32,549 bases of DNA, taken from positions 1-32,549 of IMG/VR virus record IMGVR_UViG_3300021197_000919; one strand, given 5' to 3'. The number at the start of each line of letters is the position of its first letter. The stretch's first letter is position 1. The translations under genes and the position numbers were made by a program. The DNA is from a virus. This document shows positions 540 through 6,624 of this stretch, one piece after another. A model generated the notes under the pieces. It did no database searches. It worked only from the letters and a program-made list of their open reading frames with translations, and was not told the origin of the DNA.

Positions 540-2738
540 ATGAGCGAGAGATACTTCAGCAAAGTCGCGGAGAGCGCAGTGGCCGACGTAGCCGGTGCGA
601 TCAAGGGGAGCCGCAACGAAATTTTAAACAAGGCCGCATTCAGCCTGGGCCGCCACGCGCACATGGCGCCAGCAAATCTGGACGCGGCGCTCATGGAGCT
701 GCACAGCGCGGCAAAGGCAATGGGCCTGCAAGACCACGAGATCAAGGCGACGATTGGCAGCGGCTTTAAGCGCGGAGGCGACAGCCCGAAGGAGCTCGAA
801 AACTCCGACGCGCTGCCGTACACGCCGTCAGAGTTCGAGCGCCTCATGGCGCGCCTGGCAGCAAAGGAAGTGCTGGCGAGAGACGACGAGACCCGCGCGG
901 ACAAGATGCGCAAGGCCCGCGAGATCTGGGAGCGGGGCGTCACAATTTCGCGTGATAACACCGACGCCGTGCGTCCGGCGCTGCTCTACCTCAACTCAAG
1001 GGGTCTAAGAGCCAGCACAGCCTCACATGCGGCGCGGTTCAACCCGAATATATACGACGGCCCCGCGATCATGTTTCCCGCGCTCAGTCCAAGCGGAGAA
1101 GTGTGCGGCGTGCAGAGCGTGCTGCTCACACCCGAGGGCCAGAAGAGAGAGCACAACGGGATCAGCAAATACAGCCGCGGCGTCATCGCCGGCAACGTTA
1201 TGCGGATCGGCAACGAGCACGAGGGCGGCGTCATAATCATGGCCGAGGGGCCGGAGGATGCGCTCAGCGTGTATCAGGCGGTCGGCGACGAGGCGACAGT
1301 CGTCTGCACGTTTGGCAAGGCCGGCATGTCAACATACCCGGTGCCGCGCGCGTCCGACGTGACGATCTGCGCCGACCCCGATCTCGACGTTGACGCGGTG
1401 GCCGACGTGCTGCGCGGCGACGGCAGCACCGACGTGCACGTCGTGCGGTTCGACATGCTGGGCGTCGAGGGCGTGAAGGACGCCAACGACTACATTCGTG
1501 AGGCTGGGGCGCAGAAATTGCGTGAGGCACTGGCGATGGCCAAGCCGGTCGCACAGGTGCAGGCCGAGATCGCGCAGTCCGAGCGCAGCTACCCGACGCC
1601 ATACGATCCCGTCGACCCGGCGAGCATACCGGCGCGGCGCTGGATCTACGGCCAGCACTACATCCGATCAAACGTGTCCGTGCTGGCTTCCGCCGGGGGC
1701 GTGGGCAAGACGTCCATGCAGATCGTGGAGGCGCTGGCAATTTGCACTGGCCGTCCGCTGCTCGGTGAGCCCGTGCACGAGCCGTGCAACGTGTGGGTGA
1801 TTAACTTGGAAGATCCGTACGAGGAGCTCCAGCGGCGTGTGGCCGCGGCTATGCTGCACTACAACGTCACGGCCGACGAGATCCGGGGCAAGCTGTTCCT
1901 CGATGCGGGTCGCGACATGAACATTATCTTCGCCAGGCAGGATCGCGAGGGCATCACAGTCGACGACGCGCTGGTTGACTACCTGACAGCCAAGATCACC
2001 GAGAACAAGATCGGGCTAGTCAGCATCGACCCGTGGGTCGGGGCGACTGGCATCAACGAGAACGACAACGTCGCAATGAACGCCGCCGTCGGGGCTGTGC
2101 GCTCCGTGTGCGACGAGACGGACTGTGCGGCGTCTCTCGTGCACCACATCCGCAAGGGCAACGGCTCTGACGACGCCAATGTTGACAGTATCCGAGGCGC
2201 AGGGTCCTTGCTCGGCGCAGCTAGAGCAGCGCGCGTCATCAACCGCGTGTCTATGGAGGATGCGATGAAGCTGGGCGTGTCGGAGACCGAGGCGCTTGGC
2301 ATTTTTAAAGTGGAGGACGGCAAGTCGAATATGGCTCCACCCGCAGCGAAGGCAGTGTACCGGCGCATGGTCGGCGTAAAATTGCCGAATGGAGAATACG
2401 TCGGGGTCGCGACCGAGTTCGCAATGCCTGACCTTTTCGACGGGGTGAGCGCCAAGGACGCGATGAAGGTGCAGCGTGACGTCGGGCAGGCGGCGCAGCG
2501 CGGAGAGTTTATGCGCCAGAACCCGCAGGCAAAGCAGTGGGTGGGCAACATCGTGGCGCTGCACCTCGATCTGGACGTGGACAAGAAGCACGAGAAGGCC
2601 AAGGTCAACGCAATCGTCAAAAAGTGGATCGAGACCGACGTGCTGCGCATCGAGCGCGAGAAAGACTTGCGCACCGGGCGTGACGTGCCGGTGGTCGTCG
2701 TGGGTGAGTGGATCACCGGCGAGGAGGCGGGGCAATGA
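540..2738 (+). CDS. TOPRIM-RecA-like primase/helicase fusion
   Basis: Replication protein of 732 residues. About residues 15-75 resemble the helical C-terminal domain that follows primase-polymerase domains (AAFSLGR, then a TIGSGFKRG motif). Next comes a TOPRIM-like domain with the acidic motif EGPEDAL and a downstream ADPDLD (about residues 235-285). A RecA/RepA-type ATPase follows, with Walker A AGGVGKTS near residue 385, a Walker B-like hydrophobic stretch ending in SIDPW, and a VHHIRKG motif. The start at 540 is chosen because AGGGTGG precedes it; the in-frame ATG at 495 sits at the base of the hairpin and lacks such a site. There is no N-terminal zinc finger, so a separate primase-polymerase may lie upstream. 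Its stop overlaps the next start by four bases (ATGA). Confidence 0.88.
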   Translation: MSERYFSKVAESAVADVAGAIKGSRNEILNKAAFSLGRHAHMAPANLDAALMELHSAAKAMGLQDHEIKATIGSGFKRGGDSPKELENSDALPYTPSEFERLMARLAAKEVLARDDETRADKMRKAREIWERGVTISRDNTDAVRPALLYLNSRGLRASTASHAARFNPNIYDGPAIMFPALSPSGEVCGVQSVLLTPEGQKREHNGISKYSRGVIAGNVMRIGNEHEGGVIIMAEGPEDALSVYQAVGDEATVVCTFGKAGMSTYPVPRASDVTICADPDLDVDAVADVLRGDGSTDVHVVRFDMLGVEGVKDANDYIREAGAQKLREALAMAKPVAQVQAEIAQSERSYPTPYDPVDPASIPARRWIYGQHYIRSNVSVLASAGGVGKTSMQIVEALAICTGRPLLGEPVHEPCNVWVINLEDPYEELQRRVAAAMLHYNVTADEIRGKLFLDAGRDMNIIFARQDREGITVDDALVDYLTAKITENKIGLVSIDPWVGATGINENDNVAMNAAVGAVRSVCDETDCAASLVHHIRKGNGSDDANVDSIRGAGSLLGAARAARVINRVSMEDAMKLGVSETEALGIFKVEDGKSNMAPPAAKAVYRRMVGVKLPNGEYVGVATEFAMPDLFDGVSAKDAMKVQRDVGQAAQRGEFMRQNPQAKQWVGNIVALHLDLDVDKKHEKAKVNAIVKKWIETDVLRIEREKDLRTGRDVPVVVVGEWITGEEAGQ

Positions 2739-3367
2739 TTAAGGCGTGTGAGTATAAGACGTGCTGCAATTTCTTCAGCATTACAAATGGCAGGCAGAAG
2801 CTCAAAAGGTTTTGTAGTATCATTTGCAAGAAGAGAAGCCACGACACTACGTCAGAAACCCGCTTGGCAAGTCGAAAGAGAAGGGCAAAGATAAGATGGC
2901 ATACCGATCAGGATTATCGAAAAAGATATAATGAGCGGAAATCCGCTCGGTATCACGCTATGACAGACGAAGAAAAAAAGGCTGCTAATAAAAAGCGAAA
3001 TGATAAATATAAAGATTACAGACTAAAGAGACATTACGAGAGAATGCGGTCTGACACTCATTACATGGTAAGACAAAAAGTATCTGACCGCATACGCAAA
3101 GCCTTAAAGGCTGGATACGGAAACAAAAGCAAAAGCTGCTTTCATTACATCGGCTGCTCTGTGCCGCACTTACGCCAGCACCTCGAGGCGCAGTTCGCTG
3201 AGGGCATGACGTGGGACAACCACGGCGAGTGGCACATAGACCACATCAAGCCGTGCGCCTCGTTTGATCTGACAGACGCAGAGCAGCAGCGTGAGTGTTT
3301 CAATTACACGAATTTGCAGCCACTGTGGGCCAAGGACAACTTGTCGAAGGGGGCGAAGATACTGTGA
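2735..3367 (+). CDS. HNH endonuclease with N-terminal Cys cluster
   Basis: A 210-residue protein. The N-terminus carries cysteines spaced like a treble-clef zinc finger (Cys4, Cys9, Cys10, then CSIICKK). A long Lys/Arg-rich middle follows. The C-terminus is an HNH domain: WHIDHIKPCASFDL, then a conserved Asn/Leu-Gln-Pro-Leu segment (YTNLQPLWAKDN). Such proteins cut DNA in the ββα-metal fold, and many are free-standing homing endonucleases, although some help packaging or restriction. The first 400 bases are visibly A+T-richer than the flanks while the HNH end matches them, suggesting a recent or composite arrival. The start overlaps the helicase stop (ATGA) with GAGGAGG just upstream. Homing activity is inferred, not shown. 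Confidence 0.85.
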   Translation: MIKACEYKTCCNFFSITNGRQKLKRFCSIICKKRSHDTTSETRLASRKRRAKIRWHTDQDYRKRYNERKSARYHAMTDEEKKAANKKRNDKYKDYRLKRHYERMRSDTHYMVRQKVSDRIRKALKAGYGNKSKSCFHYIGCSVPHLRQHLEAQFAEGMTWDNHGEWHIDHIKPCASFDLTDAEQQRECFNYTNLQPLWAKDNLSKGAKIL

Positions 3368-3615
3368 CCGAATTCGATGACAAGGCGGCCATGGATCTCG
3401 AGGACGACGACCTAATCATGGCGGTCTACTGGTCAGACATATTCCGTGCCTGCGCCATCGAGTTTGAGCCTGGGTTCATGCAGCCGCGCACAGTCGAGGA
3501 GCGGATGCGCGTGCAGGAAGTCATCGTGGCAACCATGCAGTGCCTGGAGCACGCATTGGTGAGGCTCGACGACCAGATGGTGGAGGTGCGCAGTGGTGCA
3601 GAGCTGTTGCATTAA
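3364..3615 (+). CDS. Small acidic protein of unknown function
   Basis: An 83-residue protein if the GTG at 3364 is used. That GTG overlaps the stop of the HNH gene (GTGA) and follows a GAAGGGGGCGAAG stretch that can serve as ribosome binding site. The ATG at 3391 is an alternative with a weaker site. The protein begins with an acidic stretch and continues as a predicted helical body; no motif is recognised. It is the last gene before the G/T-rich repeat region, so it closes the replication-module operon. Confidence 0.6.
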   Translation: MTEFDDKAAMDLEDDDLIMAVYWSDIFRACAIEFEPGFMQPRTVEERMRVQEVIVATMQCLEHALVRLDDQMVEVRSGAELLH

Positions 3616-3620
3616 TGCCT

Positions 3621-3757
3621 CCACACCTTACACACATGGGGTGTGGGGAGGTGTGGAGAGTGTGGTAAATAGGGCAATTTCACCTCCCACACCACCACAC
3701 GCTATTGTATAGCGTGGTGGTGTGGTGGTGTGGCGTGTGTGAGATTTTAGGTGTGGT
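3621..3757. repeat. GTGTGG repeat cluster, candidate origin or operator region
   Basis: The intergenic region is packed with the hexamer GTGTGG or its complement CCACAC. Direct copies lie at 3641, 3651 and 3660 (9-10 bp apart), several overlap between 3715 and 3735, and one lies at 3751. Complement copies occur at 3621, 3687 and nearby. The cluster surrounds the large palindrome at 3687-3725. It sits directly after the helicase, HNH and small genes and before a protein with an SSB-like tail. Iteron-like repeats spaced near one helical turn beside replication genes fit a replication origin. Multiple sites for a repressor are the main alternative. Confidence 0.55.
3687..3725. repeat. Long imperfect palindrome in repeat cluster
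   Basis: The left arm (3687-3704) and right arm (3710-3725) pair over 16 base pairs with one two-base bulge. The loop is TTGTA (3705-3709) and the inner stem is GCTA/TAGC. No T-run follows on either strand, so it is not a typical terminator. As DNA it could extrude as a cruciform or bind a dimeric protein; as RNA it would make a very stable hairpin ahead of the gene at 3787. Confidence 0.65.
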
Positions 3758-3786: not shown

Positions 3787-4392
3787 ATGGCAACTAAGGT
3801 GAGTGGCAAAGCGAAGCCGAAGTACACGAAGGCGAGGAAGGATAAGGGGACGTTTGAGACTGGCGTCCAGAGCAAGCCGATCTCACGTCAGGTCGATGGT
3901 CAGCTGGCTCCGCTGGATCGCAAGGCGCGGGAGAAGACGCTCAAGTGGGGCGACACTCTGCCTGGCCTCGTAAGCCCGGAGCTCGCCGGACGCTTCGAGG
4001 CGGCGTATGATGCGCTGCGGGTTAAGATCGAAGCGGATGACGTGGTGGCGGTGCACCAGATAGCGACGCAGCTGATACGCGCCTGGGACGTGCTGGAAGC
4101 GGAGGCGGAGGCTAACGGGCACCAGCCGGTGGGCCGGCACGCGTACTGCATCGAGATCGCTTCTGGCAACATCGTGTGCATCGCGCTGCACGACGCGGCC
4201 GGCATAAGGCGTGAACATCCAGAGTGGCTGGTGTATGATATGATCGACGCAGCAATCGTGCTCGGGAATAACTTTAGCAGCGAGTTCATCGCGGAAACGC
4301 TGAAGCAGTTTCCAGATGCAAAGGTGACGCGGTGCATCGGTCCAGCGAACAGCACGTTTGACGTGGAGCTGGGCGACGAGATACCGTTTTAA
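3787..4392 (+). CDS. Protein of unknown function with SSB-like acidic C-terminus
   Basis: A 201-residue protein. The N-terminal 40 residues are strongly basic (many Lys) and the middle is a predicted helix-rich domain. The last six residues are GDEIPF, close to the DDDIPF tail by which bacterial single-stranded DNA-binding proteins recruit partners. The body does not look like a standard OB-fold SSB. Possible roles are a replication or recombination accessory protein that mimics or uses the SSB tail, or a packaging-related protein given the adjacent terminase. The start at 3787 follows AAGGGGAG at a good distance; upstream in-frame starts would run into the repeat region. Confidence 0.75.
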   Translation: MATKVSGKAKPKYTKARKDKGTFETGVQSKPISRQVDGQLAPLDRKAREKTLKWGDTLPGLVSPELAGRFEAAYDALRVKIEADDVVAVHQIATQLIRAWDVLEAEAEANGHQPVGRHAYCIEIASGNIVCIALHDAAGIRREHPEWLVYDMIDAAIVLGNNFSSEFIAETLKQFPDAKVTRCIGPANSTFDVELGDEIPF

Positions 4393-4406
4393 TAGGAGAG
4401 TGTGGC

Positions 4407-4862
4407 ATGGGAACAATTGGCAAGGTGAAGCTGGCAGCGCTTGAAGCTGCCGGCGAGGACGAGATCTTCGGGATGATCGCCGCGGGCAAGAACGCGTCCG
4501 ACGTGATCGCTCACTACGACGTGGGCTGGAACCTGTTTCACAAGTGGATCGCGTCCGGCGATGGCAGAGCTCAGCGCTACGACGAGGCCAAGCAGATGGC
4601 TGGTCATTACTACGCATCGCAGGCGCAGAAGATTGCAGACGAGATACATCAACACGAGGCGAGCGTGAACAGCGCGAAGCTGGCGGTCGACGTGCTGAAG
4701 TGGAAGGCGGCGAAGGCGTCGCCAGAGTATGACACGAGGCAGCGTGACATCGCTGTCAACATTAGCGTGAACGACCTGCACGCTCAGGCTGCGCAGCTGC
4801 TCAACAGCGTTGGCGGCGACGTCATCGAGGGCGAGGCAGTCGAGGTGGAGGATGACGATTGA
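4407..4862 (+). CDS. terS: Terminase small subunit
   Basis: A 151-residue protein placed 340 bp before the large terminase gene. Residues 15-55 form a helix-turn-helix-like segment (AAGKNASDVIAHYDVGWNLF). A helical, charged central region suited to oligomer formation follows (residues 60-110), with an acidic tail ending in EDDD. Small terminases form rings that bind the packaging site and hand DNA to the large subunit. The assignment rests on position, size and the HTH-helix-acidic-tail layout rather than a diagnostic motif. AGGAGAG lies seven bases before the ATG. Confidence 0.75.
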   Translation: MGTIGKVKLAALEAAGEDEIFGMIAAGKNASDVIAHYDVGWNLFHKWIASGDGRAQRYDEAKQMAGHYYASQAQKIADEIHQHEASVNSAKLAVDVLKWKAAKASPEYDTRQRDIAVNISVNDLHAQAAQLLNSVGGDVIEGEAVEVEDDD

Positions 4863-5202: not shown

Positions 5203-6624
5203 ATGAACGCCCCCAGCCCCCAAGATAACCCGTTTCTGAAGTTGATGCGCCGCTACCGCGACGACCCCGTGCGCTTCTCCCAGGAGGTCATTGGCATCGA
5301 GCCCGACGAGTGGCAGGTTGAGCTGTTGGACGCGATTGCCGCCCCAGCGGTGCGCCGCGTATCCGTTCGGTCTGGCCACGGCGTCGGCAAGTCGACGGGC
5401 GTCGCCATGGCGGCCATCTGGCACGTATTGATGCGGTATCCGAGCAAGACGGTGGTCACGGCGCCCACGTCCGCGCAGCTTTTTGACGCGTGCTTCGCGG
5501 AGATGAAGAACGTCGCCAAGCGGCTGAAGCCCCCGTTCAACAATTTGCTGGAGATCAAGTCTGATCGGATTGAGCTGAAGAGCGCCCCGGAGAGCACGTT
5601 TATTTCGTGCAGGACGTCGAGGTCGGAGCAGCCGGAAGCCTTGGCCGGTGTTCACAGCGAGAACGTGCTGCTGCTGGCGGATGAGGCCAGCGGTATCCCG
5701 GAGGCCGTGTTTGAGGCTGCATCCGGCTCGATGTCGGGCCACAGCGCCACCACGGTGCTCACGGGCAACCCGACGCGTAACACTGGCTTCTTTTACGACA
5801 CCCACACGCGTTTGCGGGATGACTGGTACACGATGCACGTCTCCTGCGTTGACAGCCCGCGCGTTTCCGAGGATTTCGTCACCGACATGCAGCGCCGGTA
5901 CGGCGAGGACAGCCCGGCGTACCATGTGCGCGTCTTGGGCAACTTCCCGCCGTCTGAGGAGGACACGGTGATCCCGGTGGCGTTGGTCGAGCACGCGTTT
6001 AACAACGAGGTGAAGGTTCACGAGGACACTGTGGGCGTTTGGGGCTTGGACGTGGCGCGCCAGGGAGACGATAGCAGCGTCCTGTGCAAGCGCCAGGGGC
6101 CGGTGGTGCACCCGCTGACTGTGTGGCGCAACTTGGACCTGATGCAGCTCTCCGGCGCTGTGAAGGCGGAATACGATGCGGCGCCGCCGTCTAAGCGGCC
6201 GATTGAGATCATCGTCGACAGCAACGGCTTTGGCGCTGGCGTGTTGGATCGCTTGCGGGAGCTCGGGTTGCCGGCGCGCGGCTTGAACGTGTCTGAGCGC
6301 GCGATGGCGAAGCAGACGTATTTGAACCTGCGCGCGGAGCTGTGGTTCAAGTGCAAGGCGTGGCTCGAGAATATGGATGTGTCGCTGCCGAAGGATGACG
6401 CGCTGTATTCGGAGCTGGTGGCGCCGCGTTACATGTTTACGTCGTCTGGCAAGATCCAGGTTGAGAGCAAGGACAGCATGAAAAAGCGCGGCGTGCGATC
6501 TCCCGACCGCGCCGACGCGCTTTGCTTAGCATTGGCCAACGACCACACGACGATGGCATATGGTACGTCGGCCAGCGGCTCGTGGGGCAAGCCGCTGAAG
6601 CGTGGTATTCGCGGGGTGGTTTAG
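5203..6624 (+). CDS. terL: Terminase large subunit
   Basis: DNA-packaging motor of 473 residues, typical for the family. The N-terminal ATPase has Walker A SGHGVGKST (residues 57-65), a Walker B-like VLLLADEAS (about 153-161) and a coupling-type TGNPTR segment. The C-terminal RNase H-like nuclease shows acidic residues in GLDVARQGDD (about 283), VDSNGFG (about 342) and SPDRADAL (about 437). The ATPase pumps DNA into the prohead through the portal and the nuclease cuts the concatemer. AGGAG precedes the ATG. Its stop overlaps the stop of the opposing gene by three bases, leaving no room for a terminator between them. Confidence 0.96.
   Translation: MNAPSPQDNPFLKLMRRYRDDPVRFSQEVIGIEPDEWQVELLDAIAAPAVRRVSVRSGHGVGKSTGVAMAAIWHVLMRYPSKTVVTAPTSAQLFDACFAEMKNVAKRLKPPFNNLLEIKSDRIELKSAPESTFISCRTSRSEQPEALAGVHSENVLLLADEASGIPEAVFEAASGSMSGHSATTVLTGNPTRNTGFFYDTHTRLRDDWYTMHVSCVDSPRVSEDFVTDMQRRYGEDSPAYHVRVLGNFPPSEEDTVIPVALVEHAFNNEVKVHEDTVGVWGLDVARQGDDSSVLCKRQGPVVHPLTVWRNLDLMQLSGAVKAEYDAAPPSKRPIEIIVDSNGFGAGVLDRLRELGLPARGLNVSERAMAKQTYLNLRAELWFKCKAWLENMDVSLPKDDALYSELVAPRYMFTSSGKIQVESKDSMKKRGVRSPDRADALCLALANDHTTMAYGTSASGSWGKPLKRGIRGVV

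Follow-up and report, generated by a model that had tools for sequence, protein, structure and literature searches.

What is the function of the cluster of GTGTGG repeats that lies between the primase-helicase gene and the packaging genes of an uncultured phage? The window, by which we refer to the whole stretch of DNA analyzed (32,549 nucleotides; IMG/VR record IMGVR_UViG_3300021197_000919, positions 1 to 32,549), corresponds to a 32.5-kb virus record in which packaging and head genes of a phage are present. Around the array, the gene order is primase-helicase (495–2738, + strand), an endonuclease VII/HNH-like ORF (2708–3367, +; phrog_1035, E 3e-8), an 83-aa ORF (3364–3615), the array itself (3621–3756), an SSB-tail ORF (3787–4392, +), TerS, and TerL. 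The initial annotation had placed the repeats beside a primase/helicase and a protein with an SSB tail, and both were recovered. The former is a Toprim/RecA-fold primase-helicase consisting of a DUF7146/Toprim_3 primase part, an AAA_25 RecA-fold helicase, and a C-terminal winged helix, and is proposed to be a self-loading initiator. The latter directly follows the array and ends in GDEIPF, an SSB-like acidic C-terminal tip; nearly all homologues share a D[DE]IP[FW] C-terminal tail. No family in Pfam or PHROG matched this ORF, which is possibly a replication accessory protein. The endonuclease VII/HNH-like ORF is missing from the same gap in many relatives and, for that reason, was not counted as part of the core; this pattern of presence and absence may be read as a mobile insertion beside the origin. 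Four relatives (L008, L013, L021, and L024) carry such an ORF, about 48–54% identical, in the same gap. PADLOC assigned none of five neighbouring proteins to a defence family, and comparison of the window with known phages by DNA similarity yielded nothing useful, the sole matches lying inside the HNH-like ORF.

The array comprises nine exact copies of GTGTGG/CCACAC in 136 bp, located at positions 3621 (−), 3641 (+), 3651 (+), 3660 (+), 3687 (−), 3695 (−), 3720 (+), 3728 (+), and 3751 (+). One inverted copy is followed by three direct copies, an A+T-rich spacer, two inverted copies, a hairpin core, two direct copies, and one trailing copy. The number falls slightly short of the ten or so copies first claimed, while the claimed crowding held: when 100 copies of the window were generated by a third-order Markov model, the top count of any hexamer per 137 bp was four (82 times), five (14), or six (4), compared to nine in the real sequence. 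Outside the array, GTGTGG occurs near chance level (24 in the whole window versus 15.4 expected). The three copies between 3641 and 3665 are spaced by 10 and 9 bp and thus by about one helical turn, as had been noted. Also in agreement with the initial annotation, a bulged palindrome occupies the middle (arms 3687–3700/3720–3733, core 3698–3705/3709–3716) with an A+T patch beside it. In this central dyad (3687–3733), two inverted iterons lie on each side of the hairpin core. The 17-bp A+T-rich spacer GGTAAATAGGGCAATTT (3664–3680) separates the left direct iterons from the dyad and is possibly a melting element.

To follow the array in relatives, 31 loci encoding a close relative of the SSB-tail protein were fetched, and the gap was readable in 30 of these. 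An array occurred in the same place, with conserved layout, in all 30. In more distant relatives, place and layout were also retained, but all copies together had another word. The words found were GTGTGG, GTGAGG, GTGCGG, CTGTGG, CTGAGG, and CTGCGG, corresponding to the pattern xTGyGG. Relatives that keep the gene order while lacking the repeats had been named as evidence that would speak against an origin; instead, relatives without GTGTGG have a different word in the same layout. L047 and L048 have near-identical flanks, and nine L047 copies read GTGAGG where L048 has GTGTGG. Similarly, spacers and dyad core are nearly unchanged among L055, L056, L060, L095, and L087, and base y differs in nearly every copy. 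In L060 and L111, one GTGCGG is left among six GTGTGG, and one GTGAGG is left among eight GTGTGG in L095 and L119; to judge from these words, switching looks to be in progress. GTGGGG occurring as another word in GTGTGG arrays mostly represented overlaps with GTGTGGGG and was not taken as a remnant. The dyad core of distant relatives is a TA-rich palindrome, e.g. TTACGTATA/TATACGTAA, and pairing of the core stem is preserved through paired changes (CGCTAT/ATAGCG, CCCTAT/ATAGGG, GCATAT/ATATGC, and ACGTAT/ATACGT). Three relatives of ~37.5 kb (G001, G004, and G005) possess identical ends of 59–141 bp at different break points, suggesting complete, circularly permuted genomes; where an array was detected in them, there was one per genome.

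Which protein reads the variable word? The word was written as xTGyGG, and the alignments of five neighbouring proteins (primase-helicase, SSB-tail ORF, TerS, TerL, and the ORF at 19–489), with 1673 columns in all, were scanned for prediction of x and y in 123 distinct sequences. Base x was predicted without error (0/123) by residue 678 of the primase-helicase (Q in the window; codon 2526–2528, +): Q occurred with G in 83 of 83 and R with C in 40 of 40 sequences. The null gave 40 errors and the next-best column 8. Base y was predicted with two errors in 123 by residue 727 at the wing tip (T in the window; codon 2673–2675, +), with T, A, or H corresponding to T, Q to A, and D to C, compared to 67 errors for the null and 19 for the next-best column. 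Both standout columns are located in the C-terminal winged-helix domain. The SSB-tail ORF is closer to the array than the helicase but has no column comparable to 678 or 727, indicating that linkage alone is an insufficient explanation. In addition, different residues (T, A, and H) accompany the same base T, which argues against a block simply carried along. Both errors for y stem from a single lineage (L210/L214), in which Q727 occurs with the word GTGGG(G), i.e. y = G. In L210 (array at about 5522–5700) and L214, D724 is replaced by A relative to the sister L209.

We then related the switches to a tree built exclusively from residues 16–560 of the primase-helicase, i.e. without the winged-helix domain. 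This tree requires a minimum of 6 changes of x and 14 of y, and the same numbers for residues 678 and 727, respectively. With the exception of the y = G lineage, all tested switches were matched by the residue. Independent pairs agreed in 4 of 4 cases for x, 9 of 9 for y = T (p 0.004), and 6 of 6 for y = C (p 0.03); for y = A, three of four agreed, and the fourth pair displayed no residue difference. Comparison of the sequences thus shows an array made up of xTGyGG sites whose variable bases track residues 678 and 727, and these residues presumably contact x and y directly.

The proposed iteron reader comprises the C-terminal 108 residues (640–747; 2412–2735, +), for which AlphaFold2 predicted a winged helix (pLDDT 82, pTM 0.72) with helices at 653–668, 683–690, and 698–713 and a beta wing at 717–723/730–736. 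In this model, residue 678 is situated in the loop preceding the second helix and residue 727 at the tip of the wing; both are exposed. VIA-align ranked RecQ-family winged helices first, and the best Z of 8.4 is middling and thus supports the fold, not descent. The origin-binding domain of P4 was not among the fold matches listed, and a profile of the C-terminal part gave no match to a PDB chain even at E values of up to 10. The model of the whole protein was poor overall (pTM 0.42) and was, thus, not used for the relative placement of domains. The helicase part matches T7 gp4 and RSF1010 RepA, the latter being the nearest solved relative. Pfam identified AAA_25, Toprim_3, and DUF7146 only, not DUF927 or D5/Primase_Cterm. 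The protein is, according to these predictions, a replicative helicase in which a DNA-binding domain follows the RecA fold at the C-terminus. Standalone copies of the winged helix, as an Odn-like nuclease would carry, were absent among the fetched loci, and outlying matches were all truncated contig ends.

A held-out set was obtained by scanning bacterial genome contigs with the helicase alignment, which identified 37 further homologues, most of them from Alphaproteobacteria. Most have an array of hexamers that begins no more than about 40 bp from the stop codon of the helicase, whatever gene comes next, and a central hairpin is usually part of it. In L257, a terminase and a capsid gene lie beside the helicase, the terminase after the array; in L245, an integrase is the neighbour. 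Where the residue was alignable and the array clear, Q678 coincided with GTG words in 17 of 17 cases, with word picking that favoured words starting with xTG and left x free. The single R678 case (L248) has the word CTGGAG, i.e. x = C, so that this test mostly covers one class (Q = G). L678 in L245 occurs with GTGCGG (x = G) and is not covered by the x rule, and the partly palindromic TGTACA words of L264 fall outside it. The second variable base was often the fifth (GTGGAG, GTGGCG, and GTGGGG), indicating that the y rule of the window does not simply carry over. After the helicases of Rhizobium phage RHph_X2_26 (L274), BUCT618 (L290), and Vibrio phage 1.123.O (L291), a clear array was not found.

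In the cultured Rhodoferax phage P26218 (L288), GTAGCA/TGCTAC copies form an array around a central hairpin at about 2866–2998, between a RepA helicase and the terminase, which is arranged as in the window with a different word. In Microcystis phage Mae-Yong1326-1 (L287), a RecA-family ATPase gene is followed, at 4273–4465, by five copies of ACTGGCGC/GCGCCAGT together with a hairpin. TGGCGC arrays with a long hairpin are located after the stop of a RepA-like helicase with a divergent tail in L262, L266, L270, and L272, the contigs of which are labelled Asaia, Proteobacteria, Rhodospirillales, and Acetobacteraceae. We regard these four as a further branch of the helicase-then-array arrangement.

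A multi-site operator, at which the helicase tail or another protein would control the downstream operon (SSB-tail ORF, TerS, TerL), would account for an array 30 bp upstream of an ORF and ahead of the packaging genes. Repressors can use repeated sites, and covariation reflects binding, not its purpose. However, the co-varying protein is a primase-helicase and not a regulator, and its gene lies upstream of the array, which excludes autoregulation. In addition, a scan restricted to sigma-70 type sites found no promoter-like site in the gap, and the arrays of distant homologues follow the helicase regardless of the next gene. We consider an operator improbable. Even less is to be said for a structural RNA, terminator, or attenuator in which the repeats are merely stems. 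The array folds strongly as a single DNA strand (z = −7.2) and the core stem stays paired through changes, but Rfam yielded no family above the gathering score, with sub-threshold chance matches only; a T-run after the stem is absent, and a terminator scan found nothing at the array. Moreover, many of the iterons that switch in concert are direct repeats located outside the stems, and folding leaves the link to residues 678 and 727 unexplained, making this reading very improbable. A packaging (pac) site recognized by the small terminase, to which the position of the array about 650 bp upstream of TerS and the terminase after the array in L257 might point, is just as implausible, as the columns that best predict x or y include none from TerS or TerL and both near-perfect columns reside in the primase-helicase.

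Taken together, the array at 3621–3756 is very probably the replication origin of this phage, its iterons being read by the winged helix of the phage's own primase-helicase. The suggestion of an iteron origin gained strong support from two sides, the near-perfect covariation with residues 678 and 727 and the arrays after the stop codons of homologous helicases, which together identify the array as the site of the initiator helicase. Nine copies in 136 bp form the compact set of direct and inverted repeats characteristic of iteron origins, and covariation points to these repeats as sites of an initiator encoded nearby. A self-loading helicase is expected to have its origin directly downstream of its gene, and this arrangement is present in most distant homologues, while two small ORFs intervene in the window. 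A GC skew switch, proposed as a check, did not occur at the array in five near-complete relatives; the sign of the skew follows the coding strand and is, hence, uninformative, speaking neither for nor against an origin.

We propose that several copies of the primase-helicase bind the direct and inverted iterons through their winged-helix domains, which would thereby bring the RecA-fold helicase ring onto the origin. Next, the A+T spacer and the dyad, with a core of A/T or TA steps, would open and allow the helicase to enter, the Toprim domain would prime, and the host replisome would take over, perhaps aided by the SSB-tailed neighbour. A comparable mode of action has been described for SaPI Rep and Cch2 (PMC7581432) and for P4 alpha (PMC4234260). 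An origin has to fit its initiator, and the two positions would therefore form a lock that has been switched repeatedly in all copies together. Pressure to escape competing replicons, decoys of the origin, or nucleases directed at it would fit as a driver of switching.

For a large group of uncultured phages, the probable origin of replication could thus be mapped, its initiator and two specificity residues named, and a protein-origin pairing rule read from sequence alone. If the code is true, the origin type, and perhaps compatibility, would be predictable from protein sequence. The natural variants represent a ready-made experiment in which about ten scattered sites and the protein that binds them co-switch specificity with function kept; the arrays with a single leftover copy (L060/L111, L095, and L119) are part of it. 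In a limited selection of open-access literature, no description of such a helicase type with such an array was found. We consider it likely that these elements constitute an undescribed, widespread class of phage and prophage replicons with a RepA/T7 gp4-like primase-helicase, a winged-helix reader, and a two-letter residue-to-base origin code rewritten in concert.

A correspondence between initiator residues and iteron sequence across lineages is known from the iteron-related domain of geminivirus Rep. Geminiviruses are, however, ssDNA plant viruses with rolling-circle replication, and protein and mechanism are unrelated to those of the window. In PLE, the RepA_N DNA-binding domain and the iterons co-vary and are swapped as a module, and such swaps escape the origin-directed ICP1 nuclease Odn (PMC8263062). 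PLE swaps whole domains and ~30-bp iterons, whereas in the window group single residues and single bases change while the rest of the domain and of the array is conserved. Should the switches be driven by replicon competition or by nucleases aimed at the origin, the type of origin would mark that conflict, as for PLE/ICP1; in lambda, extra origin copies block infection (PMC4488673).

The helicase of P4 alpha belongs to SF3. According to PMC4234260 (citing Yeo 2002; Ziegelin and Lanka 1995), P4 alpha combines a Toprim-type primase, a helicase, and a C-terminal winged-helix origin-binding domain acting on short repeats, and a C-terminal winged helix is known in the initiator helicases P4 alpha and pRN1 ORF904. 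The window protein likewise unites primase, helicase, and C-terminal winged helix in one protein, but its helicase is a RecA-fold AAA_25 type resembling RSF1010 RepA and T7 gp4. In the RSF1010 RepA/RepB'/RepC replicon, the hexameric helicase RepA resembles the helicase part of the window protein; RSF1010 uses a separate protein, RepC, for the iterons (PMC4234260), whereas a single polypeptide of the window seems to combine all functions. SaPI Rep and SCCmec Cch2 bind short iterons directly downstream of the helicase gene through a C-terminal domain (PMC7581432). The arrays of most distant homologues of the window helicase start at the corresponding place. The helicases of SaPI Rep and Cch2 belong to DUF927 and D5/Primase_Cterm instead of AAA_25, and compared to them the window-type arrays also have a central dyad, often with a TA-rich core. 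By analogy, the array of the window would be an iteron origin that works like those of P4 alpha, SaPI Rep, and Cch2, from which it would differ in the type of helicase and in having a code that can be read.
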